Positions 35,344 through 55,944 of a stretch of DNA of 64,000 nt are shown here, in pieces (the stretch's first letter is position 1; the number at the start of each line of letters is the position of its first letter). The notes under the pieces are model-generated. The model was not told the DNA's origin and did no database searches. It saw only the letters and a program-made list of their open reading frames with translations. Source of the DNA: Planktomarina temperata RCA23 (GTDB lineage Bacteria > Pseudomonadota > Alphaproteobacteria > Rhodobacterales > Rhodobacteraceae). Position numbers and translations under genes: made by a program. The stretch is from contig NZ_CP003984.1 of the NCBI RefSeq assembly GCF_000738435.1, positions 124,001-188,000 on the forward strand, read 5' to 3'.

Positions 35344-36111
35344 TTAAATTCCAAAGATCATCCGCAGGATGCCCCAGCTGGCCAGAGCCAGCAAAAGCAG
35401 AAGACAAAACGGCTTGTAAAAATGCTCCCACCTGGAGCTGAATGACAGCTGCCCCAGGATAACCCCAAGAGCCGTGGGTCCAGCCATGGCCAATCCGCGG
35501 GCTATGGCGGTTCGGTCCATTAGTCCAAAAGCCAGCAGGCTAAGCGCCGTCGTGACACTGCCCAGAAACAAAAATAACACCAAAGAGGCGCGCATCTCAC
35601 GCGGTGGCGCATTTTGCGCTAAGACGTAAAGCGCCACAACCATGCCGCCAACACTCGCCAGGCCCGTGGCCACGCCGGCCATCCAGCCCGATCCGTAAAG
35701 TCCCCAGTTGCTCGCCAAAAAGCGCAATTGCACCCGGGCAAGCTGCAGGGCGGCGAGACTGGCGATGACGGCAAGCGCGATCAGCTTTGAGGTTTCGACA
35801 TCCACCTGCGTTGTAAGGGCCAGACCAAAAGGCACGCCAATGGTTGACCCAATGGCCAGACCCAGCGCAACCTTGCGATTGGCCTCCCGCCAGCCGCCGC
35901 GCAGCATGAAAAGCGAGGCGGTCATCTCAAGCCACCAACAGACGGGTATCAGTTGGACCGGCGGCAGGATCAAGGCGCCGGATGCCATGACCATGGCGGA
36001 CAGTGCAAAGCCCGAAAAGCCGCGAACCAACCCGGCAATTAAGCAAATCAGACCGAGCAATGCAAGGTGATCCGGCGGCAGGGCCAAGGCTGCTAAGACC
36101 GCTTGCATCAC
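35344..36111 (-). CDS. TauE/SafE family sulfite/sulfonate exporter
   Basis: A 255-residue inner-membrane protein with about eight helices. Family features: LICLIAGLVRGFSGFALSA near the start and the internal repeat GWMAGVATGLASVGGMVV. Members export sulfite or organosulfur anions (TauE, TauZ, CuyZ). It overlaps the tauR stop (GTG 36111 or ATG 36108 as start), so it is coupled to the taurine regulator. Here it would relieve sulfite build-up from Xsc, in parallel with SoeABC oxidation. Assignment to sulfite is by context. Confidence 0.85.
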   Translation of the reverse strand: MMQAVLAALALPPDHLALLGLICLIAGLVRGFSGFALSAMVMASGALILPPVQLIPVCWWLEMTASLFMLRGGWREANRKVALGLAIGSTIGVPFGLALTTQVDVETSKLIALAVIASLAALQLARVQLRFLASNWGLYGSGWMAGVATGLASVGGMVVALYVLAQNAPPREMRASLVLFLFLGSVTTALSLLAFGLMDRTAIARGLAMAGPTALGVILGQLSFSSRWEHFYKPFCLLLLLALASWGILRMIFGI

Positions 36112-37562
36112 GGGCGCATCTCGCTGGCAATAAGCGCCACGCCTTCTGCAATTTTTCGAACGGGAAGCGAGCTATAGGCCAATCGATAATAATTTTTCGG
36201 GGCATCTTGCTGGGTGAAAAACGGCCGGCCCGGTTCGATCAAGACGCCCTTGCTGCGCAGCCGCTCTGCAACCTGCTCGGCGTCGACGTTGGCCGGGGCA
36301 CGCATCCAAAAGGAGCTACCGCCAAAGGCGCCTTGCCCGGCAACGGTCAGGCCATTTTGGGCGAAGGCCTCCTCCATGGCCAGGCGCCGTGCATGAAATT
36401 CTGTACCCATCCGGCGGATCAGCGCGTCGTAATGGCCGAGCGACAGGAAATAGGCCGCCGTGCGTTGAATATGGCCGGGGGGATGGCGCAGCACGGTTGA
36501 GCGCAGCGCGCGTGCCTCGCGGATGAATGGCTTGGAGCCCACCAAATAGCCAAGCCGCAACCCTGGAAATAGCGATTTAGAGAAACTGCCAACATAGATC
36601 ACCCGCCCCTCACGGTCCAAGGATTTCAGCGCTGGAGAGGGTGCTTTGAGAAAGGACATTTCGAATTCATAGTCATCCTCAACAATTAAAAAATCTTTCT
36701 CTGCCGCGCGAGTTAGGAGTGTCCGGCGGCGCTCCAGTGGCATTGTGGTGGCGGTCGGGCATTGGTGGGATGGGGTGGTGAAGACCACATCAACATCAGA
36801 TGGCAAGGCATCTGGCGGCAGGCCTGCCGCATCCACCGCAACACTGGCCACTTGGCAGCGCGACTGGGTTAAAATATCGCGCAGGGATGGGTAGCAGGGG
36901 TTTTCCAATGCCGCTGTTCGTCTTTGGTTCAGCAGAACATTCGCAGTTAACCAAAGTGCATTCTGCGCCCCCATGGTGACCAAAACCTCATCTGGTTCGG
37001 CCCTGATTCCCCGGCGCGGCAGGGTGTGGCGCAGAATGAATTCGATCAACTTTGGATCATCCCGATCGAAGTAATCACTGGTCAGCGCATCATAATCTTT
37101 CGAGCCCAGAGCTTGAAGTGCACAGAGCCGCCAATTCGACCGATCAAACAGGGTTTCATCGGCTTGGCCGTAGATGAAGGGATATTTGTAACTGCCCCAA
37201 TCGGAGGGTTTCGTAAGTGTCACCCCGCCGGAAAACTTTTGACCAATGGCGCGGACCCAATCCACTTTGTCTTCGCGGGGCATGATGGGGAATTTTGGCG
37301 GCTGCGGTGCATTCGTGCTGATATAATAACCGGACCGACCGCGGCTCGTGAGATAATCATCGGCCAGAAGCTCTGTATAGGCGAGGGTCACGGTGATCCG
37401 GCTCACCCCCAAATGGGTCGCCAATTTTCGGCTTGAGGGCATTTTTTCGCCGGCCCGAAACCTTCCGCTGAGAATCGCTTCGGCGACCAGTTGTTGGATT
37501 TGGTTTTGTAGGGTGCCTTCCGCATCGGGCGGCAAAAAGAAAGTCTCTTCAGAAATCGCCAT
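36108..37562 (-). CDS. tauR: MocR-type GntR/aminotransferase regulator TauR
   Basis: A 484-residue MocR/PdxR-family regulator. Residues 15-80 form a GntR winged helix (AEAILSGRFRAGEKMPSSR, HLGVSRITVTLAY), and residues about 110-480 an aminotransferase-I-like domain with the PLP lysine in VGSFSKSLFPGLRLGYLVG. In Rhodobacter capsulatus TauR activates taurine genes from direct repeats (established knowledge). Here a similar pair of direct repeats lies at its own start, upstream of tpa and upstream of xsc. Placement next to tpa-tauABC makes the assignment strong. Start ATG 37562. Confidence 0.9.
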   Translation of the reverse strand: MAISEETFFLPPDAEGTLQNQIQQLVAEAILSGRFRAGEKMPSSRKLATHLGVSRITVTLAYTELLADDYLTSRGRSGYYISTNAPQPPKFPIMPREDKVDWVRAIGQKFSGGVTLTKPSDWGSYKYPFIYGQADETLFDRSNWRLCALQALGSKDYDALTSDYFDRDDPKLIEFILRHTLPRRGIRAEPDEVLVTMGAQNALWLTANVLLNQRRTAALENPCYPSLRDILTQSRCQVASVAVDAAGLPPDALPSDVDVVFTTPSHQCPTATTMPLERRRTLLTRAAEKDFLIVEDDYEFEMSFLKAPSPALKSLDREGRVIYVGSFSKSLFPGLRLGYLVGSKPFIREARALRSTVLRHPPGHIQRTAAYFLSLGHYDALIRRMGTEFHARRLAMEEAFAQNGLTVAGQGAFGGSSFWMRAPANVDAEQVAERLRSKGVLIEPGRPFFTQQDAPKNYYRLAYSSLPVRKIAEGVALIASEMRP

Positions 37563-37563
37563 T

Positions 37564-37595
37564 TTGGACCTAAACCTATATGACTTTTGGATCTA
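37564..37595. promoter_or_regulatory. Probable TauR operator at tauR
   Basis: Tandem repeats TTGGACCTA (37564-37572) and TTGGATCTA (37587-37595), exactly 23 bases apart, about two helical turns. The first touches the tauR start codon, which suggests negative autoregulation. The first half differs by one base from CTGGACCTAA, a TauR repeat known from Rhodobacter capsulatus. Confidence 0.65.
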
Positions 37596-37715: not shown

Positions 37716-39104
37716 TTAGCCAAAGACTCGGCTTAAGGCCTGATCTATTGCATCGGTGATGAGGTCGATATCTTCGGCTGTACAAATCAGCGCCGGTGAC
37801 AGGCACAGAGTGTTGTTGAACCCTGGCAAGGAGCGGTTTGTCGCGCCGATGATGACGCCCTGCGCCATGCAGTCTTTGACCACCGCCTGCACTTTTGCTT
37901 CTGGTGCCGGTTCGCGGGTTTCGCGGTTCGTCACCAGCTCTGCGCCGCAGAACAAGCCTTTACCACGGACATCGCCAATGATGCTGTGCTTCTTAGCCAA
38001 GGCTTCGAGATTAGCAATCAATTGCGCTCCGCGGGCTGTGCAATTTTCAAGAAGGTTTTCATCCTCAATGATGCGCATGTTTTCCAGCGCTGCTGCCGGG
38101 CCTGCAGTGCAGCCGCCGAAAGTGGAGATATCACGAAAGTATCCCATGTGATCGCTGGCGTCTTTGAATTGCTCGAAAACCTCTTCAGTGGTGACGGTCA
38201 ACGATATCGCCGCATAGCCGGAGGCGACACCCTTGGCCATTGTTACAATATCTGGCTGGATGTCGTAATGTTGATACCCAAACCAGGTCCCAGTGCGCCC
38301 CAGGCCGCAAACCACTTCGTCTATCATAAGCAAAATATTGTATTTTCTGCAAATTTCCTGCACGCGTGGCCAGTAGCCTTCGGGAGGCACAATAACGCCA
38401 CCCCCTGCTGTGATAGGCTCAAGGATCAAACCGCCAACGGTGTCCGGACCTTCGCGCAGGATGATATCTTCAATCGCATTTGCGGCACGCAACCCGTAGC
38501 TTTCGCCTTGTCCAAGGTTGTCTTGGGCAGCTTCGCGATATTCAAGGCAATGCGGCACGGAAATGAAACCTTCGGGGAAGGGGCCATATTGCGCGCTGCG
38601 CTCATGCTGGCCACCGGCAGCTAACGTCGCAATGGTGGTGCCATGATAATCGCGCTCGCGATACAGAATTTTATTCTTCTTGCCGCCATATTTTTTATGG
38701 GCGATTTGTCGGATCATCTTGAAGCCTTTTTCATTGGCTTCCGATCCAGAATTGGAGAAATAAACGCGGCTCATCCCTGGCATTTTCTCAATTAAGCGCT
38801 TTGCAAAATTGGCTGCAGGGATAGAGCCGGCGGCTCCGGCAAAAAAATTCATTTTTACCAGTTGATCGCGTACTGCGTCGGCGATGCTTTCACGCCCGTA
38901 GCCAACATTGACGGTCCAAACACCGCCTGAGACCGCATCCAAATGTTCTTTGCCGGCTTGATTCCAAACCCGCATGCCCTTGCCCTCGACAATGATATTG
39001 GGGTCAGCGGTTTCGAACATTTTATGTTGGATCAAGTGATGCCAAACATGGGCTTTGTCGTTGGCGACAACTTCACTCAAGTCATTTTGCAGATTGCCGT
39101 CCAT
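37716..39104 (-). CDS. tpa: Taurine-pyruvate aminotransferase
   Basis: A 462-residue class III transaminase converting taurine and pyruvate to sulfoacetaldehyde and L-alanine. Landmarks: HLIQHKMFETADPN (Tpa-like N-terminus), DAVSGGVWTVNVGYG, FSNSGSEANEKGFKM, RDYHGTTIATLAAGG, LMIDEVVCGLGRTG with the PLP Asp, and TMAKGVASGYAAIS with the PLP Lys. AAGGAG precedes ATG 39104, preferred over upstream starts. It is divergent from tauABC, with probable TauR repeats 91-122 bases before the start, and is closed by a hairpin terminator. Confidence 0.93.
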   Translation of the reverse strand: MDGNLQNDLSEVVANDKAHVWHHLIQHKMFETADPNIIVEGKGMRVWNQAGKEHLDAVSGGVWTVNVGYGRESIADAVRDQLVKMNFFAGAAGSIPAANFAKRLIEKMPGMSRVYFSNSGSEANEKGFKMIRQIAHKKYGGKKNKILYRERDYHGTTIATLAAGGQHERSAQYGPFPEGFISVPHCLEYREAAQDNLGQGESYGLRAANAIEDIILREGPDTVGGLILEPITAGGGVIVPPEGYWPRVQEICRKYNILLMIDEVVCGLGRTGTWFGYQHYDIQPDIVTMAKGVASGYAAISLTVTTEEVFEQFKDASDHMGYFRDISTFGGCTAGPAAALENMRIIEDENLLENCTARGAQLIANLEALAKKHSIIGDVRGKGLFCGAELVTNRETREPAPEAKVQAVVKDCMAQGVIIGATNRSLPGFNNTLCLSPALICTAEDIDLITDAIDQALSRVFG

Positions 39105-39566
39105 GGGGCATACTCCTTTTTCAGATGTTTTGGAATGGTCAATTTCTATAGGCTTTCTTCGACACCTATCAGCGCAGAAAAGCTGTGCCAAAAATAGGTC
39201 CAGATATATATCCTTTGTATGTCCAAAAAGCATTTCTGCTTGCTGGATGCAACGACTGTTTGCAGTGTTGCGCGGATGATGCCGTCGTGCTGGCGTGAAG
39301 ATCAGCAGCGGCTGCTCGTTGTGAAATTGGGAGAGACCGAAATAAAAGCTGTGCGAGTCTGAGTAAATATTTCTCTGAATATTTTAAGTGATATTGCGAT
39401 ATCATTCAAAAAAAATCAAGAATATGCTTTGCGCGGCTTGTATTTTATGGTTCGGTATACTCCTGAATTTCGCCATTTTGACCATGCAAGCCGGTCTCAT
39501 TTTGGCGAGGTTGAATGAAGAAAACAAGTTGGCCATCAAACGCCAGCGCAACTGGGAGAAAGTAAT
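39105..39566. promoter_or_regulatory. Divergent tpa/tauA control region
   Basis: A 462-base region without a convincing gene. It holds the TauR-type repeats on the tpa side (39195-39226). The half nearer tauA is AT-rich (39355-39425) and includes one isolated CTGGATGCA at 39243 that could be a weak extra half-site. The tauA ribosome binding site GGGAGAAAG sits just before 39567. A 60-codon hydrophobic frame (39388-39570) is probably not real because it lacks a ribosome binding site and overlaps tauA. Confidence 0.6.
39195..39226 (-). promoter_or_regulatory. Probable TauR operator at tpa/tauA
   Basis: Read on the minus strand, TTGGACATA (39226-39218) and CTGGACCTA (39203-39195) are tandem repeats exactly 23 bases apart and point toward tpa. 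The second half equals the core of the known Rhodobacter TauR repeat CTGGACCTAA except for the last base. Confidence 0.75.
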
Positions 39567-40568
39567 ATGAAAATGAAAACTGCATTGAAGAGTGCTGTTG
39601 CTGGGTTAACTCTGGTGTCCGGCTCCGCTGCATTTGCAGGCGGCCACGGCGAGTTGAACGTCGCTTATTTTCTAGAGTGGCCAATGCCATTCCAAGCGGC
39701 AAAAGTTTCTGGCGCCTATGACGCTGCTTTGGGCATGAAGGTAAACTGGGTTTCTTTCGACACAGGCACAGCAATGTCCGCAGCCATGGCGTCCGGTGAC
39801 ATTGATATCTCCGTGTCTCAGGGTGTTCCACCTTTCGTAGTCGCAACATCAGCAGGTCAAGATCTGCAAATTGTTGACGTGGCTGTGTCCTATGCGGACA
39901 ACGACAACTGTGTGGTCGCGTCCGGTTTGGAAATCGACAAAAACTCCGCAGGCGAATTGGCCGGCAAGAAAGTTGCCGTGCCGTTGGGCACAGCGGCGCA
40001 CTACGGCTTCTTGAAACAAATGGAGCACTTTGGCGTATCCTTGGACAGCCTGACAGTTGTGGACATGGCACCTGCTGAAGGCCAAGCGGCCTTGGCTCAA
40101 GGTGCTGTCGACATGGCTTGTGGTTGGGGCGGTGCGCTGCGCCGTATGAAAGAATCTGGCAACGTATTGCTGACAGGTGCGGAAAAAACTGAGCTGGGTA
40201 TTTTGGTCTTTGATGTGACCACAGCACCTTCTGGTTTTGTCGCTGAAAATGCCGATATTGTGGCGAAATTCTTGGCTGTGACTGCTGATGCTAACACCGC
40301 ATGGAATACCTCTCAGCCTGAATTCATGGCCAACATGATTGCGCAAGATGCCGGTATGAGCGTTGAAGATGCAAAAAGCTCCATGAGCACATTTGTGTTC
40401 CCAGACATTGACACCCAATTGTCTCAGTCTTGGCTCGGTGGCAATGCGCAGACCTTCATGAAAGGTGTTGCGGATGTTTTCGTGAATGCAGGTTCAATCG
40501 ACAGCGCCAAAGGCAGCTATGCTGACAATGTAAATACTGGTCCTTTGGCTTCCGCTAAAGGCATGTAA
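39567..40568 (+). CDS. tauA: Taurine ABC transporter substrate-binding protein
   Basis: A 333-residue periplasmic binding protein of the nitrate/sulfonate/taurine family. The signal peptide is MKMKTALKSAVAGLTLVSGS with cleavage near AFAGG. The mature N-terminus NVAYFLEWPMPFQ and VSQGVPPFVVATSAGQD are typical of alphaproteobacterial TauA. Codon use is strikingly uniform, as expected for a highly expressed transporter. It begins the tauABC operon and is followed by a hairpin that probably reduces read-through into tauBC. Confidence 0.92.
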   Translation: MKMKTALKSAVAGLTLVSGSAAFAGGHGELNVAYFLEWPMPFQAAKVSGAYDAALGMKVNWVSFDTGTAMSAAMASGDIDISVSQGVPPFVVATSAGQDLQIVDVAVSYADNDNCVVASGLEIDKNSAGELAGKKVAVPLGTAAHYGFLKQMEHFGVSLDSLTVVDMAPAEGQAALAQGAVDMACGWGGALRRMKESGNVLLTGAEKTELGILVFDVTTAPSGFVAENADIVAKFLAVTADANTAWNTSQPEFMANMIAQDAGMSVEDAKSSMSTFVFPDIDTQLSQSWLGGNAQTFMKGVADVFVNAGSIDSAKGSYADNVNTGPLASAKGM

Positions 40569-40611: not shown

Positions 40612-40689
40612 TTACTGTGTGATTAGTCCGCGGGAATCCTCCGTTAACATAAGAGAAGGCCAAGCATTTTGGCCAGAGGGGAGCTTCAG

Positions 40690-41496
40690 GTGTCAGGCCT
40701 GCTTATTGACAATATTTCTATGCGCTTCGATTTGCCCAATGGTGGATCGGTCCAAGCGCTTAAAAACGTAACCTTGGATATAAAATCTGGAGAATTGCTA
40801 AGTGTTCTTGGCCCGTCAGGCTGTGGCAAAACCACTTTGCTGAATATCGTGGCCGGGTTCTTGGCGCCCACAGAGGGACAGGTTGTTGTCAACGACCATG
40901 CGGTCAAGGGACCCGGACCTGAGCGCGGCATGGTGTTTCAGCAAGGCGCGTTGTTTGAATGGATGACCGTGCGGGAGAATGTTTCTTTCGGACCAGATAT
41001 GAAGAAAATGCCGCGCATCAAAAGCGTAAAGATCGTCGATCGTTTGTTGGAAGTTGTGGGGCTTCAGGATTTTAAAGACAAGGCGGTTTATGAGCTCTCA
41101 GGCGGCATGCAGCAACGCGTGGCTTTGGCCCGTTGCCTGGCCAATGAGCCGGATGTGATTTTGATGGATGAGCCTTTGGGCGCTTTGGATGCTTTGACCC
41201 GCGAAAAGATGCAATCCTTGGTGCTTGATCTGTGGAAAGAGACCGGCAAAACCATTATCTTGATCACCCACTCCGTGGAAGAAGCGTTGCTTTTGGGCGA
41301 GCGCTTATTGGTTATGGCGCCGCGCCCTGGCCGAATTCACAAAGAGTATCGCCTGCCCTTTGCGGAAATGGGTGTTGGCGCGGATTTACGCGCGGTTAAG
41401 AAACATCCCGATTACGCCAAAACCCGTGAGGAGATTTTGGCGATGATTTGGGAAATGGAAGAAGAAATAATGGGCCGCACGGAGGAAAGCGCATGA
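40690..41496 (+). CDS. tauB: Taurine ABC transporter ATP-binding protein
   Basis: A 268-residue ATPase of the nitrate/taurine class. Walker A GPSGCGKTT, signature LSGGMQQRVALARCLA, Walker B VILMDEPLGALDALTRE and the switch His in LITHSVEEALLLGERL are present; FQQGALFEWMTVREN is typical of TauB/SsuB relatives. GTG 40690 is preferred over TTG 40669 because GGGGAG lies six bases before it. Its stop overlaps the tauC start (ATGA). Confidence 0.94.
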   Translation: MSGLLIDNISMRFDLPNGGSVQALKNVTLDIKSGELLSVLGPSGCGKTTLLNIVAGFLAPTEGQVVVNDHAVKGPGPERGMVFQQGALFEWMTVRENVSFGPDMKKMPRIKSVKIVDRLLEVVGLQDFKDKAVYELSGGMQQRVALARCLANEPDVILMDEPLGALDALTREKMQSLVLDLWKETGKTIILITHSVEEALLLGERLLVMAPRPGRIHKEYRLPFAEMGVGADLRAVKKHPDYAKTREEILAMIWEMEEEIMGRTEESA

Positions 41497-42803
41497 CCGG
41501 TTTGATCCTTCTTGCCGTATATATCGCGATTTTTGCGGTTAGTATGGTGATTGTAGCTTGGGCCACAAAACGATTTTTTACCCGCGCTGATTTTACCTCA
41601 CTCAAGACGGTGACCTTTGGCGATGAAAGCGCTGTAAAGGCGAACCGGGCCGCGTCAGTGATTTCGGTTCTGGCGATTTTCGCCCTTTGGGTGGCTTTTA
41701 CCAATTCATCCTTGCCTTTGTTCAAGGCCAAAGGTCCGTTCGAGGGTATGGTGGAATTCACCTATACCTCTACCTTGCCTGATGGACGCAGCGATGACGC
41801 AACCGTTTCCATTTTGGTCTACCCTGAAGATGTTCAACTGACAGAAGATGCCAATGGAGCGCCAGGGAAAATTCCGAACAAACCTGACGTCGATCTCGGC
41901 GAAGGGTTCGCAAAGAACGATACATTGGTCATCCCGCGTTATGGATCAAAGCTGGTCTCTGTGTTCAAAAATGATGAGTTCAAAAAATCAGATGGGGCCA
42001 TCGTGACCCATCTCAATGGACAGGCCCTCACACCTGGTGAGCAGATTATCTTGTCCGAGGGACGCTTGGCGCTCACCGAAAAAGGCACACCGTTCTTCGA
42101 ACCCTCCACCGGGTTTCGCATGGCGCGGCTCTATCTGCCTGCTCCGGAAGTGACGACGAACCGCTTTTTACAGCTGAATCGTGAAGGGTATCGCAATTTC
42201 ACCCTGCTTGAGCATACTTGGGCCTCTTTGCAACGTGTGTTGCTTGGTTTTATCTTTGGCGCGCTTGTGGGTATTCCCCTCGGTTACGCCATGGGGCTGA
42301 CCAATTGGGCGCGGGGCTGGTTTGATCCGATTGTCGAATTTATGCGCCCTGTGCCGCCCTTGGCCTTGATCCCCTTGATGATTATTTGGTTCGGCATTGG
42401 TGAGACGTCCAAAGTGATCTTGCTCTTTCTTGCAGCGCTCTGGATCATGGCTATCGCGGCGCGCTCTGGCGTGTCCGGTGTGGCCATTGCCAAAGTGCAT
42501 GCGGCCTATTCCTTGGGTGCCAAAAAATCGCAAATTTTGCGTAAGGTGATCATTCCAAACTCCCTGCCTGAGATTTTTACCGGCGCACGGGTGGCCATGG
42601 GCGTGTGTTGGGGCACGGTTGTGGCGGCTGAATTGGTGGCGGCGGAAAAAGGTCTTGGCATGATGATCATGGTCGCGGCTAAGTTTCAGCTGACAGATAT
42701 CGTGATTGTCGGGATTATCCTCATTGGTGTGATCGGTTTTGCCATCGACATTGGAATCCGCAAGCTTGAAGGCTGGCTGGTGCCTTGGAAAGGTAAAGTT
42801 TAA
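41493..42803 (+). CDS. tauC: Taurine ABC transporter permease with long N-terminal extension
   Basis: A 436-residue permease. Residues 236-436 form the usual TauC/SsuC permease domain, with helices and the coupling segment KVHAAYSLGAKKSQILRKVIIP. Residues 1-25 and 53-70 add two helices, and residues 71-235 form a polar, probably periplasmic domain (TLPDGRSDDATVSILVYPED). E. coli TauC is near 275 residues, so the extension is large. It is coupled to tauB and closed by a strong terminator. Confidence 0.9.
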   Translation: MTGLILLAVYIAIFAVSMVIVAWATKRFFTRADFTSLKTVTFGDESAVKANRAASVISVLAIFALWVAFTNSSLPLFKAKGPFEGMVEFTYTSTLPDGRSDDATVSILVYPEDVQLTEDANGAPGKIPNKPDVDLGEGFAKNDTLVIPRYGSKLVSVFKNDEFKKSDGAIVTHLNGQALTPGEQIILSEGRLALTEKGTPFFEPSTGFRMARLYLPAPEVTTNRFLQLNREGYRNFTLLEHTWASLQRVLLGFIFGALVGIPLGYAMGLTNWARGWFDPIVEFMRPVPPLALIPLMIIWFGIGETSKVILLFLAALWIMAIAARSGVSGVAIAKVHAAYSLGAKKSQILRKVIIPNSLPEIFTGARVAMGVCWGTVVAAELVAAEKGLGMMIMVAAKFQLTDIVIVGIILIGVIGFAIDIGIRKLEGWLVPWKGKV

Positions 42804-42846: not shown

Positions 42847-45252
42847 TTAAGATTTAACCCGGCTGTTGTCTGGGTCGTAAACTGGCCCGTTCAGAAGTCT
42901 GGCCGCATAGGGCTTGCCGATGATATCAACAGTTATGCCCTCGACGATATCGGGCTGCATAAAGGCATAGGCGATATTCTTGCCCGTGCGGTGCCCCCAG
43001 TCGGCAGAGGTGACCGAGCCTATCAGCCGCCCGCCGGCATAAAGGCTGTCGCTGGGTTGTGGGCTTGCGTGAGTGGCGTCAATCTCAAGCATCCGCAGTC
43101 GGCGGCGTTTCTTGTCGCCGCGGGCCATGAGCGCTGCTTTTCCGAGGAAGTCTTTGTCGCGGCAGACAAACCGGTCGAGTCCAGTCTCATAGGGGTCAAA
43201 CTCAGTGATCAGATCTGATTTCCAGTGGAGATAGCCTTTCTCCATGCGCATACTGTCCACGGCGCGCGCGCCGAAATGTCCGATATCATGGGCGGCGCCG
43301 GCCCGCATCAGCGCCGAGTAAGCGGCGAAGAGCGCGGAATTGGGAAGGTGGATTTCATAGGCCAATTCACCTGAAAAGCTCACCGACATGACGATTGCCG
43401 GCGCATGTCCAATGCGGGCCTCGCGGACCGAAAGCCAAGGAAAGCCTGCGGCTGACCAATCGCCTCTGGCGCAAGCGCTGAGCACGGCGCGGGATTTTGG
43501 CCCGGCCAAGACTAAGATCGTGTGGTCATTGGTCAAACTGCGCAGCGTGACGGAGCCATCTTTCGGCAGATGCTTGCTCAACCAATCCATATCATGGAAT
43601 TCTGCGGCTGCGGCCGATCCATACCAAATGCGGCCATCTGGGAGATTGGCGATTGTGGCTTCTGCTTTCACATTGCCATAATCATTGAGAAGATACCCAA
43701 GCCCCAGTTTTCCAATTTTGCGCGGCACGCGAGAGCAGATCATATAATCCAGCCAATCGCGCGCACCTGGGCCGGTGATCTCAATCCGATTGAACCCGTT
43801 CACTTCCGCAAGCGCCACATGATTTTGCACCCGTGCCACCTCGGCTGCGACCAGCTCATGCACCTTTGTGTATCTATAGCCATAGTCTTCCACAAAATCG
43901 GGGGTGGGTTTGAAATAGTCCGACCGCTCCCAGCCATTGACCACAGTGAAATGTGCGCCGGCTTGCTCCAAGATCGGGGTCAGAGGTGTGGTTTTGGCTG
44001 GGCGCCCCGCCGGGCGGTGCTCATGGGGCAGATGAAAGCGAAACTCGTTTTGATAATCTTGGATGGCGTAAAGGGACGTCAATTCTTGCGTGGCATGGCC
44101 GGTGAAACGCCGTGGATCTAAGGCCCATGTGTCATAACAGGCCTCCCCATGGACAATTTGCTGTGCCAGTAGCCAGCCGTGACCACCGCCCTCACCAAGC
44201 CCGGCCCTGAGACCTATGATGCAAAAGGCGTTGCGCTTGCCGGGAATCGGCCCAACCAAAGGGGTGCCGTCGATGGTATAGGTGATGGGGCCATTGACCA
44301 CCTGTTTGATGCCAACTTCCGCAAGGGCGGGCATACGGGAGATTGCCCCTTCCAACACATCCATAACCCGGTCCAAGTCATCCGGGCACAGATCATTGCT
44401 GAATTTGGGATCAATCCCATCCATGCCCCAGGTCTTGCAACCTTGTTCATAAAACCCGACTAAGAGACCATTTTTTTCCTGCCGCGAATAATAGTCTGAA
44501 ATCGGGCAGCGCAGCAGTGGGATCCGATGCCCGGCCTCCATAACGCCCGGCATATCTTCGGTGATGAAATACTGATGCTCCATGCTTGCGACTGGATGCT
44601 CTACTCCCATCATAGCGCCAACCTCATTGACCCGGTACCCGCAGGCGTTGACGACAATCTCTGCGCGAATATCGCCCTTGTCCGTGTGCACCGTCCAACT
44701 GTCATCGGCATGTTGCGTCAGGTCCGTGACAGAGGTGAAACGGTAGACCTCAGCACCGGCGGCGCGGGCCCGGCGTGCCAAGGCTTGGCAGAGCTGGGCC
44801 GGATCGATATGCCCGTCACTTGGATCCCAGAGGCCGCCCATTAGGTTTTCGGTCGAAATCAACGGATGCCGCCGCGCGCATTCCTGTGCATCCAGCACTT
44901 CGAACTCAACCCCCATGCCCTTGGCCAGGCTGGTGAAATGCGCGTATCCGTCCATATGAGCTTGCGTATTGGCCAGACGGATGCCGCCATCTCCAAAGTT
45001 ATATCCGACCGGGTATTCAGGATCTGCGGCCAGCTCTTTGTAGAGTTTGATCGAATGGCTTTTGAGACCAATCATCACCTGCGACATGCCGAAATTGGTG
45101 ACCTGCGCCGCAGAATGCCAGGTGGTGCCGGAGGTTAATTCATCGCGCTCCACCAGAACCACATCGCTCCACCCCTCCTGGGTCAAATGGTAAAGGGTTG
45201 AGCAACCGGCGATTCCGCCGCCGATAACCACAACGCGTGCTTGAGATTTCAT
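42847..45252 (-). CDS. FAD-dependent demethylase, dimethylglycine/sarcosine dehydrogenase-like
   Basis: An 801-residue two-part enzyme. Residues 1 to about 380 form a DAO-type FAD domain (VVVIGGGIAGCSTLYHL, TSGTTWHSAAQ where the His normally carries FAD covalently). Residues about 430-800 form the GcvT-like tetrahydrofolate-binding half (GFNRIEITGPGARDWLDYM, YLHWKSDLITEFDPYETGLD). Length and layout match DMGDH, which oxidises an N-methyl group and hands formaldehyde to THF. AGGAGG precedes ATG 45252. It is divergent from an MttB-like gene and lies between the two halves of the taurine pathway. The substrate is unknown; N-methylated glycine is the default, N-methyltaurine a hypothesis. Confidence 0.87.
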   Translation of the reverse strand: MKSQARVVVIGGGIAGCSTLYHLTQEGWSDVVLVERDELTSGTTWHSAAQVTNFGMSQVMIGLKSHSIKLYKELAADPEYPVGYNFGDGGIRLANTQAHMDGYAHFTSLAKGMGVEFEVLDAQECARRHPLISTENLMGGLWDPSDGHIDPAQLCQALARRARAAGAEVYRFTSVTDLTQHADDSWTVHTDKGDIRAEIVVNACGYRVNEVGAMMGVEHPVASMEHQYFITEDMPGVMEAGHRIPLLRCPISDYYSRQEKNGLLVGFYEQGCKTWGMDGIDPKFSNDLCPDDLDRVMDVLEGAISRMPALAEVGIKQVVNGPITYTIDGTPLVGPIPGKRNAFCIIGLRAGLGEGGGHGWLLAQQIVHGEACYDTWALDPRRFTGHATQELTSLYAIQDYQNEFRFHLPHEHRPAGRPAKTTPLTPILEQAGAHFTVVNGWERSDYFKPTPDFVEDYGYRYTKVHELVAAEVARVQNHVALAEVNGFNRIEITGPGARDWLDYMICSRVPRKIGKLGLGYLLNDYGNVKAEATIANLPDGRIWYGSAAAAEFHDMDWLSKHLPKDGSVTLRSLTNDHTILVLAGPKSRAVLSACARGDWSAAGFPWLSVREARIGHAPAIVMSVSFSGELAYEIHLPNSALFAAYSALMRAGAAHDIGHFGARAVDSMRMEKGYLHWKSDLITEFDPYETGLDRFVCRDKDFLGKAALMARGDKKRRRLRMLEIDATHASPQPSDSLYAGGRLIGSVTSADWGHRTGKNIAYAFMQPDIVEGITVDIIGKPYAARLLNGPVYDPDNSRVKS

Positions 45253-45407
45253 TGCCTGCCTCCTGATCCGCACCTTATTCCTGGCACATTGGAAGGGGTT
45301 TTGAAAATATTTTTCCACCATTTGATAGTCTGCCAGCGCGGTTATTTTCCTTGACCGAAGCCCGCGTGCGCGAGACGGTGCCTGCAAAAGTAATCGAAGG
45401 GAGTGTT

Positions 45408-46925
45408 ATGGCGCGCGCAACAGGTGGCAGAGCGGGGCGACATCTGCGGCGCAGTAAAGCCTTGCCGATAAATCCCGCGCCCCCCGGCGGGTTTGGCGGG
45501 CAATATAAACCTTTGAGTATGTCTGATATGGAGCAGATCTACGATGTCGCCCTGCGCTTGCTCGAAGAGCTTGGGGTTGGCGAGGTGCCGGACCGCTTGC
45601 GGGATCTCTTTGTGCAGCAGGGGGCTCGATTCGAATCTGGGCGGATTTATATACCGCGTCGCTTGATTGCGCAGGCCGTTGCCGCTGCTCCAAAAACCAT
45701 CACTTTGCACGGCCGGGATCCCGCGCGCAGCATCGAAGTGGGTGGGGATCGGGTGCATTTTGGCACCGGAGGCGCGGCGGTGCAGACTTTGGATTTGGAC
45801 AGTGGCGATTATCGTGCATCAACGCTGCAGGACCTCTATGATTTTGCCCGGCTTCAGGACCAATTGACCAATGTCAGCTGGTTTACCCGTTGCTGCGTTG
45901 CCACCGATTTGGTTGGAGAGGAGGCTTTGGATATCAATACAGCCTATGCCTTGCTCGCAGGCACCAGCAAACCTGTGGCCACCTCTTTCACCTTAGCGGA
46001 CCATGTGGCGCCCATCGTTAAGATGATGGATATGGCGGAGGGGCGCGAGGGGGCGTTTTCGGAGCGGCCGTGGTTGGCGGCCCATATCAGCCCGATGATT
46101 TCACCGCTGCGATTTGGCGCGGATGCGGTCGAGGTGTGTTTTGAATGCGTGGCGCATAATATCACGGTCAGCTGCATCACCGCGGCACAATCAGGGGCAA
46201 CAGCGCCGGCCACCCCCGCGGCATTTTTGGCGCAATCTTTGGCGGAAACATTGGCGGCTCTGGCCATGGTGCATGTGATGAAGCCTGGCCATCCGATGAT
46301 TTTTTCCAACTGGCCATTTGTGATTGATCTGCGCAGTGGAGCGTTCTCGGGCGGAGGTGGTGAGATTGCCCTCATGAATGCCGCATCAGCGCAGCTTTCA
46401 AATTGGTTGGGCCTGGTCAGCGGTGTCGCCAGCTCGATGACTGATTCCAAGGCGATTGATGCGCAATATGGTGCGGAGAAAGGGGTGACGGCCCTCGCTG
46501 CAGCCTTATCGGGTGCCAATATGATCTACGAAAGCGCCGGCATGACCGCGGCTTTGCTCGGGGTTTCTTTCGAAGGGTTTGTTCTCGACAATGATATGCT
46601 TGGCAATATTTATCGCATGCTGCGCGGGGTTGAGGTGACCGATGAGAACCTCGGTTTTGATGTGATTGTGGACGTGGTCCAAGGGGAGGGGCATTTCCTA
46701 GGTCATCCCCAAACGATGGCGGCGATGGAGCGGGATTATTTCTATCCTGAGACCGCCGATCGAGAGGCGCCGATTACGTGGCGCGAACGGGGCAGCATGG
46801 ATGCGCAGACCCGGGCCAAAGCCACGGCGCGCACTTTGTTGCAGCGGCATCCGACCTATTTGTCGGCCCAAGCCGATGCCCGTATTCGCGCGGCCTTCGA
46901 CATCCAACTGCCACCGCAGCGATAG
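45408..46925 (+). CDS. MttB-like (COG5598) methyltransferase without pyrrolysine
   Basis: A 505-residue member of the trimethylamine/glycine-betaine methyltransferase superfamily. Family features: MSDMEQIYDVALRLLEELG near residue 38, FGTGGAAVQTLDLDSG, and LVSGVASSMTDSKAIDAQYG and SGANMIYESAGM in the C-terminal part. No internal TAG interrupts the frame, so it belongs to the non-pyrrolysine group that includes MtgB (betaine demethylation). GAAGGGAG precedes ATG 45408. No corrinoid protein or reductive activase is in the window. Probable role: demethylation of a quaternary amine; the substrate is unknown. Confidence 0.85.
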   Translation: MARATGGRAGRHLRRSKALPINPAPPGGFGGQYKPLSMSDMEQIYDVALRLLEELGVGEVPDRLRDLFVQQGARFESGRIYIPRRLIAQAVAAAPKTITLHGRDPARSIEVGGDRVHFGTGGAAVQTLDLDSGDYRASTLQDLYDFARLQDQLTNVSWFTRCCVATDLVGEEALDINTAYALLAGTSKPVATSFTLADHVAPIVKMMDMAEGREGAFSERPWLAAHISPMISPLRFGADAVEVCFECVAHNITVSCITAAQSGATAPATPAAFLAQSLAETLAALAMVHVMKPGHPMIFSNWPFVIDLRSGAFSGGGGEIALMNAASAQLSNWLGLVSGVASSMTDSKAIDAQYGAEKGVTALAAALSGANMIYESAGMTAALLGVSFEGFVLDNDMLGNIYRMLRGVEVTDENLGFDVIVDVVQGEGHFLGHPQTMAAMERDYFYPETADREAPITWRERGSMDAQTRAKATARTLLQRHPTYLSAQADARIRAAFDIQLPPQR

Positions 46926-49245: not shown

Positions 49246-50034
49246 TTAGAAAAATGCCCGGAGGGCTTTGTTGACGTCAAAAGGGTGTTCGGTGATCGAC
49301 ATATGGCCCGATTGGGCAATTTCGACCAGCTCACCCCCTAGCGCAGCCTGCAGGGCCAATCCAGTTTTACGGGGCGTCATTCGGTCCTGGCCGCAGACCA
49401 CGGTTAAGGTGGGGCAGGTGACAGATTGCGCAGCGGTGGGGCCATTGTCATAGGCGTTACAAGCCACCAAATCTTTGTGAAGTGTTCCGGGCGCATTGCC
49501 AGCCATAAGGCGGCTGCCGTAAAGCATATGCGAGGTGCCGGGCATTGTGTGGTCATGAATATGCCCTGCTGTGCCATGGCCCCAGTCCATCATCGCGGCA
49601 ATGGCCGCGCTTTCGTTTGTTGCGGCCAGATTGATCAGAGCGTCATTGACCGGGATCGCCAGCGCCGTGCTGATAAAGGCCGCCTTGGCAACGAGATCAG
49701 GGTAGCGGCTGGCCAATTCCAATTCGATCAAACCGCCCATGGAGTGACCGACCAAAATGGCTTTGGGGATGCCGAGCGCTTGCATGAATTGTGCATACCA
49801 ATCGGCCATGGCCTCCACTGTTGTGAGCGCCTCGCCCTTCGACAAGCCATGTCCTGGCATATCGGGCGTGATGCATTGAAAGCCACGATTGGCAAAAAAG
49901 CGATGTTGCAACATGAAGCCAAGATGCGATTGGCCGGAGCCGTGCACGAAGAGCACAACCGGTCCTGATGATGGATCAAAATCGCGCCCGCCGGTTGAGG
50001 CAAAAATTTCGACATTATTCAGCGTCAGTTTCAT
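49246..50034 (-). CDS. Alpha/beta hydrolase
   Basis: A 262-residue hydrolase. HGSGQSHLGF marks the oxyanion loop, GHSMGGLIELELA the nucleophile elbow, VVCGQDRMTP the acid-residue region and AQSGHMSITEHP the catalytic His. This matches the broad haloperoxidase/esterase-like group. Its ATG overlaps the metY stop (ATGA), so it is coupled to metY and just precedes the FadN-like gene. The substrate is unknown; ester or thioester cleavage is possible. Confidence 0.82.
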   Translation of the reverse strand: MKLTLNNVEIFASTGGRDFDPSSGPVVLFVHGSGQSHLGFMLQHRFFANRGFQCITPDMPGHGLSKGEALTTVEAMADWYAQFMQALGIPKAILVGHSMGGLIELELASRYPDLVAKAAFISTALAIPVNDALINLAATNESAAIAAMMDWGHGTAGHIHDHTMPGTSHMLYGSRLMAGNAPGTLHKDLVACNAYDNGPTAAQSVTCPTLTVVCGQDRMTPRKTGLALQAALGGELVEIAQSGHMSITEHPFDVNKALRAFF

Positions 50035-51347: not shown

Positions 51348-51520
51348 GAGTGTGCTCCTGGGCAAGATTTCAGCGTCGTTGCTATCGCGCAATGGATCAT
51401 AGCTCAAGCGTCTGCGCCATGGAATTTCATGCGTTACCATCATATATAATTGAAATTTCGAGAATATTGGGAGATGTGACGTAGGGTGAGATTGGGCCTG
51501 CACAGGGGGCAGACTGCGTC

Positions 51521-53014
51521 TTGCACGATTTTGTCTTGCGCTACGGGCGGGAGATGGGTTTTAATACTTCCATTATGACATTGATATTTCATGTATTATT
51601 TTTAGTTTTGCTCTTGGTGGCGCTGGCTTTCTTGCTTTATATGCTTCACCGCGGTCGCGTTGAGCGCCGGAAAATGCGCCGCCTTATTGACCGGTTGCGC
51701 CTGTCGAACTCCAAGCTCTCTCGCTATGTTGATCTTGATGACCTGACTGCGGCGCAATCGCGCCGGTACTTGGTGGATCGGATCGACCGCCACAAGCGCC
51801 GCGAAACCCACGCGCTGCTTTATGTGGATTTGGATGAGTTCAAGACCGTGAATGACACCTATGGCCATGATGTCGGGGATGCGTTGTTGATCAAGGTGAC
51901 TGATGCCATGGTGGCGGCTTGTCGTCCTGGAGATTTTGTCGCGCGACTTGGTGGGGATGAGTTCTGCGTCTTTCTTAAGGGCTGTGACTTGGAGAGCGCT
52001 GGGCAGGTGGCGCGCCGCTTTTTGCAAGCGGTGGTGGAGGCCGATATGGAGGTCGCGGGGCGCCGGGTGATCCGCACCGCGAGCATTGGCGTGTGCGAAT
52101 TGCGGCCAGATCAGAGCATGGAAGATGCGTTGAATGTTGCCGACGCGGCGCTCTATGAGGCGAAATCTAAGGGTAAGAATCAAATTTTAGTAGCGGATCA
52201 AGATGTTGTGCTCCGCATGCGGCAAAAACAGTCACGCCCTTCTGCTGAGGAGGTCGGAGCGGCTTTGGAAAATGGGGAAATCACCTATTTTGTTCAGCCA
52301 ATTTTTGATTTGGAACAGGATCGAATTGAAGGGGTTGAGGCTTTGATCCGATGGGTCAAGCCGGATGGTGAGATATTATTGCCAGGCCAATTTTTGGATC
52401 TGATGGCGGACAGTTATAAACGCGGCGTCCGGCCACCACTTGAGGAGGCCAATGCGGCTGCAATTGGATTTTCCAAATTGGACCCGCCGATCTACTGCGG
52501 ATGGAATATTTCGAGCAAGTTTCTGAACAATACTGTACTGCCGGGCGCAGACGCGGAATGGCTCAAAGCCTTGCTCAACGGCCTGCCGCCAGAAATGACA
52601 GTTTTTGAAATTGTCGAGAGCACCGTGATTGAAAATCCCGAGGCCACCAAAACGCTCATCAATAGGCTGAGATCCAAGGGCGTGCGGATTGCCTTAGATG
52701 ATTTTGGCATTGGTATGTCCAACCTTGAGCGATTGCTGGAATATCCGATCGATATTTTGAAAATTGACCGAAGTTTCGTGCAAAGCCTGACACAAGAAAG
52801 CCGTGAGGGGATTATGCGCGGACTTGTTGAGATGTCCAAAACTATGGGCTTTGAAATTATTGCAGAGGGAATCGAAACTCAGAATCAACTAGACCTCGTG
52901 CGCGCAGTGGGAATCACCCATGCGCAGGGGTATTTTCTTGGAAAACCAGGGACAGCTGACTATTGGCTCGAAGAAATATTGCGCCGGCGGTCTCAAAAAA
53001 CGACATCTGAGTGA
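51521..53014 (+). CDS. Membrane-anchored GGDEF-EAL protein
   Basis: A 497-residue cyclic-di-GMP enzyme. One N-terminal helix (about residues 18-42) anchors it. A GGDEF domain (residues about 70-220) contains an intact active site RLGGDEFCVF. An EAL domain (about 240-490) keeps EGVEALIRW, FEIVESTVIENP, ALDDFGIGMSNLE and EGIETQNQL. Both motifs look catalytically competent, so it may make, break or switch between both. The TTG start at 51521 is uncertain; ATG 51554 is another choice. No sensory domain is seen beyond the helix. Confidence 0.85.
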   Translation: MHDFVLRYGREMGFNTSIMTLIFHVLFLVLLLVALAFLLYMLHRGRVERRKMRRLIDRLRLSNSKLSRYVDLDDLTAAQSRRYLVDRIDRHKRRETHALLYVDLDEFKTVNDTYGHDVGDALLIKVTDAMVAACRPGDFVARLGGDEFCVFLKGCDLESAGQVARRFLQAVVEADMEVAGRRVIRTASIGVCELRPDQSMEDALNVADAALYEAKSKGKNQILVADQDVVLRMRQKQSRPSAEEVGAALENGEITYFVQPIFDLEQDRIEGVEALIRWVKPDGEILLPGQFLDLMADSYKRGVRPPLEEANAAAIGFSKLDPPIYCGWNISSKFLNNTVLPGADAEWLKALLNGLPPEMTVFEIVESTVIENPEATKTLINRLRSKGVRIALDDFGIGMSNLERLLEYPIDILKIDRSFVQSLTQESREGIMRGLVEMSKTMGFEIIAEGIETQNQLDLVRAVGITHAQGYFLGKPGTADYWLEEILRRRSQKTTSE

Positions 53015-53024
53015 AAATATCGAT

Positions 53025-53056
53025 GTGGATATATTTGAGGGTCGGAACTGGCCCTA
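53025..53056 (+). promoter_or_regulatory. Probable TauR operator upstream of xsc
   Basis: Tandem repeats GTGGATATA (53025-53033) and CTGGCCCTA (53048-53056), exactly 23 bases apart, about 100 bases before the xsc start and pointing toward it. Spacing is identical to the tauR and tpa sites; the second half differs by one base from the tpa half-site CTGGACCTA. Confidence 0.6.
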
Positions 53057-53158
53057 AATATGTCATTGCCTATGTCCTAATAGAAGGGCAGACATTAACC
53101 CACAGAGATGCTGCGAGAGAAAACCGTGGCATATTCAATCCCTTTAAGGAGCTGCCCC

Positions 53159-54928
53159 ATGAAAATGACCACTGAAGAAGCCTTTGTAAAAACGCTCCAG
53201 ATGCACGGTATCCGCCACGCTTTCGGGATCATTGGTTCTGCCATGATGCCTATTTCTGATATCTTTCCAAAAGCTGGAATCATGTTTTGGGACTGCGCCC
53301 ATGAAGGGTCCGCTGGGATGATGGCGGATGGCTACACCCGCGCCACCGGCGAAATGTCCATGATGATCGCACAAAACGGTCCTGGCATTACCAATTTCGT
53401 TACTGCGGTCAAAACCGCCTATTGGAACCATACCCCCCTGCTGTTGGTCACACCACAAGCGGCCAATAAAACCATCGGTCAGGGTGGCTTCCAAGAAGTT
53501 GAACAAATGAAATTGTTCGAAGATATGGTTGCCTACCAAGAAGAAGTTCGCGACCCGAGCCGGGTGGCAGAAGTTCTGAACCGTGTCATTATGCAGGCGC
53601 ATCGGGCCTCCGCCCCGGCACAGATCAACATTCCGCGCGATATGTGGACCCAGGTTGTTGATATTGAGTTGCCAAAAATCGTTGCATTCGAGCGCCCACA
53701 AGGTGGGGAGAGCGCGGTTGCGGAAGCGGCTGAGTTGATCTCGAATGCGAAATTCCCGGTCATCTTGAATGGCGCCGGCGTTGTTCTGGCCGATGCGTTT
53801 GACGATGTTGCCGCTTTGGCAGAGCGTTTGGATGCACCGGTCTGTGTGGGCTACCAGCACAATGATGCATTCCCTGGCTCGCATCCTTTGTTTGCCGGTC
53901 CTTTGGGCTATAATGGCTCAAAAGCGGGCATGGAGCTGATCTCACGGGCTGACGTCGTGGTCGCGCTGGGCACACGGCTTAACCCCTTCTCAACACTGCC
54001 GGGCTACGGGATTGATTACTGGCCGGTGAATGCGAAAATCATTCAGGTGGATATCAACCCAGATCGGATCGGTTTGACCAAGCCTGTAAGCGTGGGCATC
54101 GTTGGGGATGCGAAAAAAGTGGCGCAAGGCTTGCTGGCGCGCCTGTCTGATACGGCCGGCGATGCGGGTCGTGAGGAGCGCAAGAACTTGATCGCGACAA
54201 CCAAATCAGCTTGGGCGCAAGAGTTGACTTCAATGGATCACGAAGATGATGATCCAGGCACCACTTGGAACCAGCGTGCACGTGCGGACAAGCCAGATTG
54301 GATGTCTCCGCGTATGGCTTGGCGTGCTATCCAATCGGCTCTGCCAAAAGAGGCAATTATCTCCTCAGACATTGGCAATAACTGCGCCATCGGCAACGCC
54401 TACCCCTCCTTTGATGAAGGCCGAAAGTATCTGGCTCCGGGTCTCTTTGGTCCCTGTGGCTACGGTCTGCCGTCAATCGTTGGCGCGAAAATTGGCCAAC
54501 CTCACGTTCCTGTGGTTGGTTTTGCAGGTGACGGCGCCTTCGGGATTGCGGTTAATGAGCTGACGGCCATTGGTCGGGACGAATGGCCTGCTGTGACACA
54601 GATCGTGTTCCGCAACTACCAATGGGGTGCAGAAAAGCGCAACTCAACCCTCTGGTTCGACGATAACTTTGTTGGCACTGAGTTGGACACCAAAGTCTCC
54701 TATGCCGGCATCGCGCAGGCCTGTGGTTTGATTGGTGTGCAAGTGAAAACCATGGAAGAGTTGACCGATGTGTTAAACCAAGCCATCAAAGACCAAATGG
54801 AAAACAATAAAACCACTTTGATCGAGGTCTTGTTGAACCAAGAATTGGGTGAGCCTTTCCGCCGGGACGCAATGAAAAAACCTGTTCAAGTTGCAGGCGT
54901 GTCTTCGACAGATATGGCGGCTGAATAA
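53159..54928 (+). CDS. xsc: Sulfoacetaldehyde acetyltransferase
   Basis: A 589-residue thiamine-diphosphate enzyme that converts sulfoacetaldehyde and phosphate to acetyl phosphate and sulfite. The pyrimidine-binding half ([32 protein letters not shown]) and the diphosphate-binding half ([34 protein letters not shown]) are intact, and [15 protein letters not shown] is typical of Xsc. AAGGAG precedes ATG 53159. It is followed by pta after 11 bases and lies downstream of a probable TauR operator. This is the key desulfonation step. Confidence 0.96.
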
Positions 54929-54939
54929 GGAGCTTCGGT

Positions 54940-55944
54940 GTGGCGGCATTTCGCGATATTCTTGCCGCCACCTCTGGCGCAACACCAACCATTGTATTGA
55001 GCGAGGGCGCCGACCCTCGCGTTGCAGAAGCCGCGGTTGCGGCTTCTGTTGCTAATTTGGCAAAAATTATTTGCATCGGCGACCCGGCCTTGGTGCAACC
55101 GGCGCTTGCTGCGGCGGGCTCAGTGGGCGATATCGCAATCGAAGGCCCCGCCACAAGCCCGCGATTGCCCGGCTATATTGCAGATTATGTGCGCAAGCGT
55201 GCGGCCAAGGGCATGACGCCCGAAAAAGCCCAGCTTGAATTGTCCCAAGCCAACTTTTTCGCAGCCGCCATGGTCGCGGCCGGGGATGCCGATGGTACGA
55301 TTGGTGGCGCAGTCTATTCCACACCCGATATCATCCGCGCAGCACTCAAAGTGATTGGCACGGCGGAGGGTACAAAGCTTTTATCGTCTTTTTTCTTTAT
55401 GCTTTTCGAAGATCGCCCGGATCTGCCCAGCCCGGTGAACGTCTTCACCGATTGCGGTCTGGTGATTGACCCCAGCGCTGAAGAATTGGCCGATATTGCG
55501 ATTTCCTCTGCGGAATCGATGCGCTGTCTCACCGGGCTGGAGCCCAAAATCGCGATGCTGTCTTTCTCCACGCGCGGCAGTGCCAAACATGCCAATGTCA
55601 CCAAAGTGAGCCAGGCCACCGCCATGGTGCAGGCGGCGCGACCGGATCTTGTGGTTGATGGTGAGTTGCAATTCGATGCGGCCATGGTGCCATCGGTCGG
55701 TGCCGCGAAAGCACCCGGTTCACCCGTTGCCGGGCAGGCAAATATCTTTGTCTTTCCGAATTTGGATGCCGGCAATATCGGCTATAAAATTGCGCAGCGT
55801 TTTGGTGGCGCCAAGGCCATTGGCCCGATTTTACAAGGCCTGGCAAGACCAGCGAATGATTTGTCACGCGGCTGTACTGCGGATGATATCATTGACATGA
55901 TTTGTGTAACGGCAGCTCAAGCGGCCGTTCAAAAAAATACCTGA
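54940..55944 (+). CDS. pta: Phosphate acetyltransferase
   Basis: A 334-residue PTA_PTB enzyme that turns acetyl phosphate from Xsc into acetyl-CoA. Motifs: [57 protein letters not shown] and [22 protein letters not shown] start at 54940, with AAGGAG overlapping the xsc stop. It lacks the N-terminal DRTGG-type extension of long Pta forms, as usual for xsc-linked genes. Confidence 0.95.

Follow-up and report, generated by a model that had tools for sequence, protein, structure and literature searches.

Among described systems, the nearest to the genes considered here is the MtgB/MtgC/MtgD system of Ruegeria pomeroyi. The excerpted text of PMC12478193 describes a split methionine synthase/glycine betaine demethylase of R. 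pomeroyi and Phaeobacter with an MtgC-like protein, DUF1638 and S-methyl_trans, and reports up to seven PF06253 genes per genome, for which further substrates were proposed. In the available excerpt of PMC4744692, SPO3400 and SPO3396 of R. pomeroyi are named as genes of the glycine betaine route of the dimethylglycine dehydrogenase (DMGDH)/sarcosine dehydrogenase type. The degradation of C3 sulfonates by HpsN and CuyA-CuyB was described in PMC11382572, the available part of which mentions no N-methyl-removing enzymes. Here we analysed a 64-kb stretch (the window) of the 3,288,122-base single-contig genome of Planktomarina temperata RCA23, in which a DMGDH-like gene and a divergent gene of the MttB superfamily lie inside a taurine locus. 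The substrate of this pair is plausibly an N-methylated aminosulfonate, as suggested by the sulfonate and betaine-transporter genes that recur near the pair in other genomes.

The DMGDH-like gene (42847..45252, minus strand, starting at the first ATG of the conserved frame) encodes an 801-amino-acid (aa) amine dehydrogenase of the flavin adenine dinucleotide (FAD)/tetrahydrofolate (THF) type, and the MttB-like gene (45408..46925, plus strand) encodes a 505-aa methyltransferase without pyrrolysine, while the 155 bp between them (45253..45407) form the divergent promoter region. The original prediction had placed such a pair here, which the coordinates, the Pfam domains and a PF06253 score of 373 bits (cut-off 25, profile positions 3-475 of 500) confirmed. 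The MttB-like protein carries Met344 at the position of the pyrrolysine Pyl334, and this methionine was kept in 140 of 140 aligned rows. It scored under the cut-off of TIGR02369, the trimethylamine methyltransferase equivalog (326 vs 525 bits), and its closest solved relative is the glycine betaine methyltransferase MtgB (207 bits). The DMGDH-like protein contains DAO, FAO_M, GCV_T and GCV_T_C domains, and its closest solved structures are mammalian dimethylglycine dehydrogenases (PDB 5l46, 4p9s; 481 bits). A T[TS]WH[SA]A motif, whose histidine we take to be the FAD-linking residue, was invariant in all 115 DMGDH-like homologues examined. With the full four domains, the presumed FAD-linking histidine and a THF-binding-type GCV_T domain, the protein has the architecture of a dimethylglycine dehydrogenase; it differs from the mammalian enzymes in being partnered with an MttB gene, and is at most 38% identical to the other DAO-GCV_T proteins of its own genome. 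The enzyme class of both products is well supported.

The genome contains seven PF06253 genes. Four of the six other paralogues scored 704-760 bits on this model, compared with 373 for the pair's protein, and the nearest of the six is 40% identical to it. As in the MtgB system, a PF06253 methyltransferase occurs in a roseobacter together with an MtgC-like protein: one of five PF02310 matches in the genome is a 235-aa MtgC-like protein with B12-binding and cap domains, whose gene is flanked by DUF1638 and S-methyl_trans genes. The remaining four frames measure 766, 681, 278 and 266 aa, and a PF00809 match of 89.6 bits at genome position 1886502 is a candidate for the pterin methyltransferase MtgD. 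Unlike in the MtgB system, as far as the excerpts of PMC12478193 describe it, the pair's methyltransferase is a divergent paralogue that usually stands next to a DMGDH-like gene of its own and whose presumed substrate is none of those demonstrated there. Six other full-length DAO-GCV_T proteins of the genome are 29-38% identical to the window's, and two of these genes, in tandem at 69-75 kb, could be the usual DMGDH/sarcosine dehydrogenase pair of the glycine betaine route. Outside the window, at genome positions 2344196-2355347, another of the seven MttB paralogues has a PF00815 gene of lower score at a distance of about 8 kb.

Orthologues of the MttB-like protein (at least 60% identity) are sharply set apart from paralogues (at most 44%) and were found in 75 of 394 family genomes. 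For comparison of loci, the window, 80 loci of the family and genus surveys and the best 80 of 379 relatives in named genomes were merged, and 21 duplicates were dropped from these 161 loci to leave 140 distinct ones; G096, one of the 75 ortholog-bearing family genomes, is left out of this set, and genes were called by a crude longest-open-reading-frame (ORF) rule. A close DMGDH-like homologue lies near the MttB gene in 115 of the 140 loci. The two genes are adjacent and divergent in 109 (gaps 99-379 bp), divergent with a gap of 0.7-1.5 kb in five and further apart in one, and the wider gap of L134, the one scanned among the five, is filled by a LysR gene. Contig ends interrupt four loci, and no DMGDH-like homologue was found in 21 loci with at least 3 kb of upstream sequence. 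Most other flanking gene families vary, each occurring at few loci. The DMGDH-like and MttB-like genes form a portable, divergently transcribed unit.

Neighbouring families were defined as clusters at 45% identity, with no preselection, and ranked by the fewest changes on a FastTree tree of MttB, which has 45 weak forks among 137 inner branches. Tree changes are reported because related loci are not independent, above all the nine loci of a Ruegeria group. LysR genes ranked first (25 changes), followed by HpsN-type genes (11), a ProV-type ATPase (8), OpuAC and a second LysR cluster (6 each), and then, with five changes each, the arginase family, a TauB-like ABC ATPase, CuyA, CuyB and a shadow ORF of mttB. 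HpsN-type genes, which are homologues of histidinol dehydrogenase, occur at 21 of the 140 pair loci, CuyA and CuyB at five each within 10 kb, OpuAC at 13 and ProW at 15, and none of them was present at 40 loci of a control MttB paralogue. The betaine-type transporter genes OpuAC/ProW together account for 17 pair loci and at least six changes. Arginase/agmatinase-family genes were found near the pair in 14-16 of 140 loci and at one of the 40 control loci within 10 kb.

In this first comparison the pair flanks slightly exceeded in length those of the 40 control loci, of which two fell short of 16 kb, and the comparison was redone with equal full flanks. With 9-kb flanks, any sulfonate marker was present at 16 of 103 pair loci vs 0 of 38 control loci (p = 0.006), HpsN at 11 of 103 (p = 0.036), OpuAC at 12 of 103 (p = 0.036) and arginase-family genes at 11 of 103, all against 0 of 38; with 8-kb flanks, any sulfonate marker was present at 14 of 104 vs 0 of 38 (p = 0.02). 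Our confidence was lowered slightly because the equal flanks shrank the HpsN enrichment from 21/140 to 11/103, although the pooled sulfonate result stayed significant. When the full locus stretch is considered, a sulfonate marker occurs at 27 of 140 loci, with at least 15 changes on the tree. In the family survey, HpsN lies near the pair in six of 80 loci vs 0.86 expected if two HpsN-type genes per genome are assumed (P = 3e-4); the 117 PF00815 genes counted, about 77 of them beyond one high-scoring copy each, come from 40 of the 75 ortholog genomes, which were hand-picked and include five already seen with HpsN near the pair. Of the 39 family genomes with both CuyA and the pair, four have them no more than 10 kb apart (0.21 expected, P = 7e-5).

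The HpsN neighbours have a GRY[SA]H motif, and not GSAPL, in 18 of 18 clustered cases, with three further tblastn matches left out; according to the excerpts of PMC11382572, this motif binds the sulfonate and distinguishes HpsN from histidinol dehydrogenase. One CuyA and one CuyB representative scored over their curated cut-offs. In L135, DMGDH, CuyA, CuyB and HpsN genes follow each other on one strand with gaps of at most 24 bp, and in L181 and L214 DMGDH and HpsN genes share a strand with gaps of 46 and 34 bp. In L088, mttB is followed without a gap by a gene for an aminotransferase that is DegT-like from its sequence, and then by HpsN, CuyA and CuyB, all on the same strand. An opposite-strand LysR gene separates mttB from hpsN in L150 and in three Shimia loci (L151, L156, L177). 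The sulfonate link recurs at the locus level in several arrangements, with none in the control loci, and families of the known C3-sulfonate route adjoin the pair in several roseobacters.

An apparently conserved gene after mttB in the three Shimia loci (cluster c38) was rejected as a shadow ORF antisense to the LysR gene, and mttB is therefore not co-operonic with hpsN there; a 360-aa ORF of L189 resembles these shadows and was treated alike.

The palindrome TTTCGA-N5-TCGAAA is strongly over-represented in the pair promoter, where it was found within one core mismatch in 24 of 109 cases vs 3 of 545 shuffles. The scoring cut-off corresponded to one match per 1.1 Mb of shuffled sequence. Elsewhere in the 140 loci there are 46 further matches; 16 of these are labelled as immediately preceding a LysR gene, and three, all in Ruegeria, stand before OpuAC. 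This distribution ties the pair to a LysR regulator and a betaine-type transporter. At the window's own copy, no LysR neighbour and no palindrome match at the stringencies tested were found.

Our tentative reading is that the pair is a portable N-demethylation module, coupled to B12 and folate, with an N-methylated aminosulfonate as its most likely substrate. The MttB-like protein would remove one methyl group from a quaternary amine and load it onto the cellular MtgC-type corrinoid protein, its presumed partner, from which it would pass to THF, and the DMGDH-like protein would next oxidise the remaining N-methyl groups, delivering them to THF as methylene-THF. Candidate substrates may be N,N,N-trimethyltaurine or an N-methylated cysteinolate, and the demethylated core would then be degraded by whichever sulfonate pathway lies near the pair. 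In Planktomarina, trimethyltaurine would give taurine, to be processed by Tpa, Xsc and Pta, and in other roseobacters an HpsN-type dehydrogenase would take over, with or without CuyB/CuyA. There, a hypothetical methylated cysteinolate would yield cysteinolate, which the HpsN-type enzyme may convert to cysteate, an activity proposed by analogy with histidinol, and CuyB/CuyA would split cysteate into pyruvate, ammonia and sulfite. An N-methyltaurine dehydrogenase of Alcaligenes would also give taurine from N-methyltaurine, and it is a membrane-bound enzyme of another type. With respect to the supply of such compounds, the excerpted PMC10538540 reports tri-, di- and monomethyltaurine together in the red alga Galaxaura rugosa, and the excerpted PMC8703288 describes cysteinolic acid as widespread in microalgae. 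Searches of the open-licence literature turned up nothing relevant on how bacteria degrade methylated taurines or on MttB occurring with genes for taurine or sulfonates, nor any assay, mutant or expression result for the pair genes.

The recurrent sulfonate genes and betaine transporter around the pair support a sulfonate-bearing quaternary amine, and glycine betaine and guanidino-betaines are still compatible with them. Taurine betaine is one candidate substrate, and its conversion into taurine would be one version of the aminosulfonate hypothesis. A bolder claim, which we regard as possible but doubtful, is that the pair is the core of a new B12-dependent roseobacter route that demethylates sulfobetaines such as methylated taurine and methylated cysteinolate, coupled repeatedly to the desulfonation pathway of the host (Tpa-Xsc, HpsN or HpsN-CuyB-CuyA). 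If true, C1, nitrogen and organosulfonate cycling would be joined by sulfobetaine demethylation. Sulfonates and betaines both rank among the main products of algae and nourish marine bacteria, and a unit opening methylated sulfonates to desulfonation would widen B12-dependent demethylation beyond the recently described case of glycine betaine. The pair would also serve as a genetic marker for taurine betaine and similar compounds, and it would point to a role for one of the MttB-type paralogues, which number up to seven per genome and mostly have no assigned substrate. With a conserved pair and recurring neighbours, the question can be put to a direct test in strains that grow in culture.

Several results weigh against an aminosulfonate substrate. 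No scanned sulfonate marker was found in the examined flanks of 113 of the 140 loci, and in nine of the 21 loci with HpsN, all from related Ruegeria, that gene is some 9.5 kb from the pair. HpsN was not significant with equal 8-kb flanks (9 of 104, p = 0.11) or in the family survey against controls (6 of 80 vs 0 of 40, p = 0.18), and CuyA, CuyB, TauA and Xsc were not significant singly with equal flanks (p = 0.3-0.6). The closest solved homologues of the two proteins act on carboxylates, namely glycine betaine and dimethylglycine. No palindrome match at the scoring cut-off precedes an HpsN/CuyA operon, and membership of the sulfonate genes in the regulon is therefore not demonstrated. The reading does not account for the arginase-family neighbours, and the adjacency of the pair to tau and xsc genes is a single evolutionary event. 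Co-occurrence across genomes is non-specific: xsc accompanies the pair's orthologue in 71 of 75 genomes compared with 174 of 319 other family genomes (odds ratio 14.8, p = 2e-12), but it is equally associated with the control MttB paralogue (194 of 225 vs 51 of 169 genomes, odds ratio 14.5), and within control-positive genomes the association is weak (odds ratio 3.3, p = 0.03). For CuyA, the odds ratios are 3.3 for the orthologue and 3.6 for the control. Because the control gives similar values, co-occurrence with xsc and with CuyA was dropped as evidence.

A rival explanation is a conventional betaine module, in which the MttB-like protein acts on glycine betaine or a related carboxylate betaine, the DMGDH-like protein acts on dimethylglycine, and the sulfonate genes are neighbours in islands for algal metabolites. 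Besides the solved relatives MtgB and mammalian DMGDH, the recurrence of OpuAC/ProW genes and the sharing of the pair's palindrome by three Ruegeria OpuAC promoters fit such a module, and two PF06253 proteins increase on glycine betaine in R. pomeroyi according to the excerpts of PMC12478193. However, the P. temperata genome has six other DAO-GCV_T proteins, among which the tandem two could already be the usual pair, and six other MttB paralogues, four of them far closer to the PF06253 model; nor does glycine betaine breakdown call for recurring HpsN, CuyA and CuyB neighbours. We consider the conventional module rather unlikely.

It is improbable, in our estimate, that the Planktomarina pair is a passenger which came to lie between tauC and xsc by accident and, whatever it acts on, is metabolically unconnected with taurine. 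In its favour, tauABC and xsc stand beside the pair in 4 of 140 loci only, which are the window and three close relatives (L145-L147) of one Planktomarina clade, while four other Planktomarina genomes have no tau genes in the flanks around the pair or, in one of them, around a solo mttB. Apparently unrelated genes are interposed at the Planktomarina copy, and neither a LysR gene nor the palindrome or a TauR half-site was detected there. Against it, the arrangement is kept in the four clade genomes with enough flank, and L068, a fifth, short contig of the clade, still shows the end of tauC beside the pair. The recurrent sulfonate links elsewhere make a chance landing in Planktomarina less likely. 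The tie to tau genes drawn in the original prediction was not borne out, since homologous pairs lie mostly away from them, the outcome that it had named beforehand as counting against it; its methylated-taurine idea survives in the form of the broader sulfonate link (HpsN, CuyA and CuyB with at least 11, 5 and 5 changes), while its tau-xsc setting comes down to one clade. An N-methylated aminosulfonate is a fair hypothesis, and the prediction, which is partly supported, was a good guess for a weak reason, as the tau neighbourhood alone would not carry the claim.

Another quaternary amine, for example a guanidino-type or amino-acid betaine from which arginase-family hydrolases release urea, with the sulfonate association incidental, would suit the arginase-family genes near the pair, among them those of five Ruegeria-group loci where such a gene follows mttB by 60-83 bp on the same strand and another lies in the convergent OpuAC-ProVW array. 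This reading is very unlikely: most pair loci are without arginase genes, HpsN recurs more independently (11 vs 5 changes), an arginase-type gene is also present within 10 kb at one control locus, and no known compound was identified. Amidinotaurine (taurocyamine) would presumably reconcile the arginase and sulfonate links. In the nine loci of the Ruegeria group (L193, L203, L209, L211, L217, L219, L220, L222, L224), an arginase-family gene lies just beyond mttB and is followed by an array with OpuAC, ProV, ProW and a further gene of the arginase family; on the other side, HpsN is located at a distance of about 9.5 kb.

The taurine locus around the pair includes a MocR-type GntR/aminotransferase regulator (36108..37562, minus strand), a candidate TauR by position only; it scored over the NCBIfam PdxR cut-off (347/320 bits), so its identity as TauR is not confirmed. 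Next is a class III aminotransferase (37716..39233, minus strand; PF00202), a candidate taurine:pyruvate aminotransferase (Tpa) that scored under the NCBIfam cut-offs. On the plus strand follow a TauA-like binding protein (39567..40568, 135 bits vs the NCBIfam taurine cut-off of 304), a TauB-like ABC ATPase (40669..41496, 275 vs 357 bits) and a TauC-like permease (41448..42803, 232 vs 342 bits). The mechanical ORF of the latter has 451 aa and matches the permease only from about residue 225, which points to a wrong start, with the true one later, or to an N-terminal extension.

Beyond mttB, a FadB-like gene (46928-49231), an alpha/beta hydrolase (49246-50034) and an O-acetylhomoserine sulfhydrylase (50031-51503), all on the minus strand and with no evident link, and a GGDEF-EAL protein (51521..53014, plus strand) come before xsc, the sulfoacetaldehyde acetyltransferase gene (53108..54928, plus strand; TIGR03457 930 bits, cut-off 676). 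The first three adjoin the pair in the Planktomarina clade only, apart from one distant copy each of the hydrolase and the sulfhydrylase elsewhere. The phosphate acetyltransferase gene pta (54940..55944, plus strand; TIGR00651 347 bits, cut-off 311) and a molybdopterin oxidoreductase, SoeA-like by position (55971..58781, plus strand; distant NCBIfam matches, none over cut-off), come after xsc. The predicted position of the pair between the tauABC-like genes and xsc-pta held, as did the identities of xsc and pta, while tauABC stayed under the taurine cut-offs and SoeA had no match over cut-off; the four intervening genes stand between mttB and xsc.

As to regulation, CTGGACYTAA, the TauR half-site consensus, was absent at up to one mismatch from the pair promoter, in agreement with the original prediction that no TauR-type repeat is present there. 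One-mismatch half-sites were found at 37564-37573, upstream of the MocR-type regulator, and at 53048-53057, upstream of xsc, although matches in the window at up to one mismatch were not above chance (5 vs 3.4 expected).

Homologues of TauA were found in 126 of 248 family genomes, mostly at 60-79% identity. In 16 of 17 genomes compared by hand, TauA and xsc lie 2-8 kb apart on the same contig, and 13 kb apart in the remaining one. The gap of 12.5 kb in the window, compared with the usual 2-8 kb, suggests that the pair was probably inserted once into an ordinary taurine locus. A TauA-like protein of L189, a Nitratireductor metagenome-assembled genome, was dropped from a special tau link to a weak second one because TauA homologues are common in the family. 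In that locus, the pair stands between genes for two TauA-like binding proteins, which are 50% and 48% identical to that of the window, and genes for another MttB, a DAO oxidoreductase and an IclR regulator also lie nearby.

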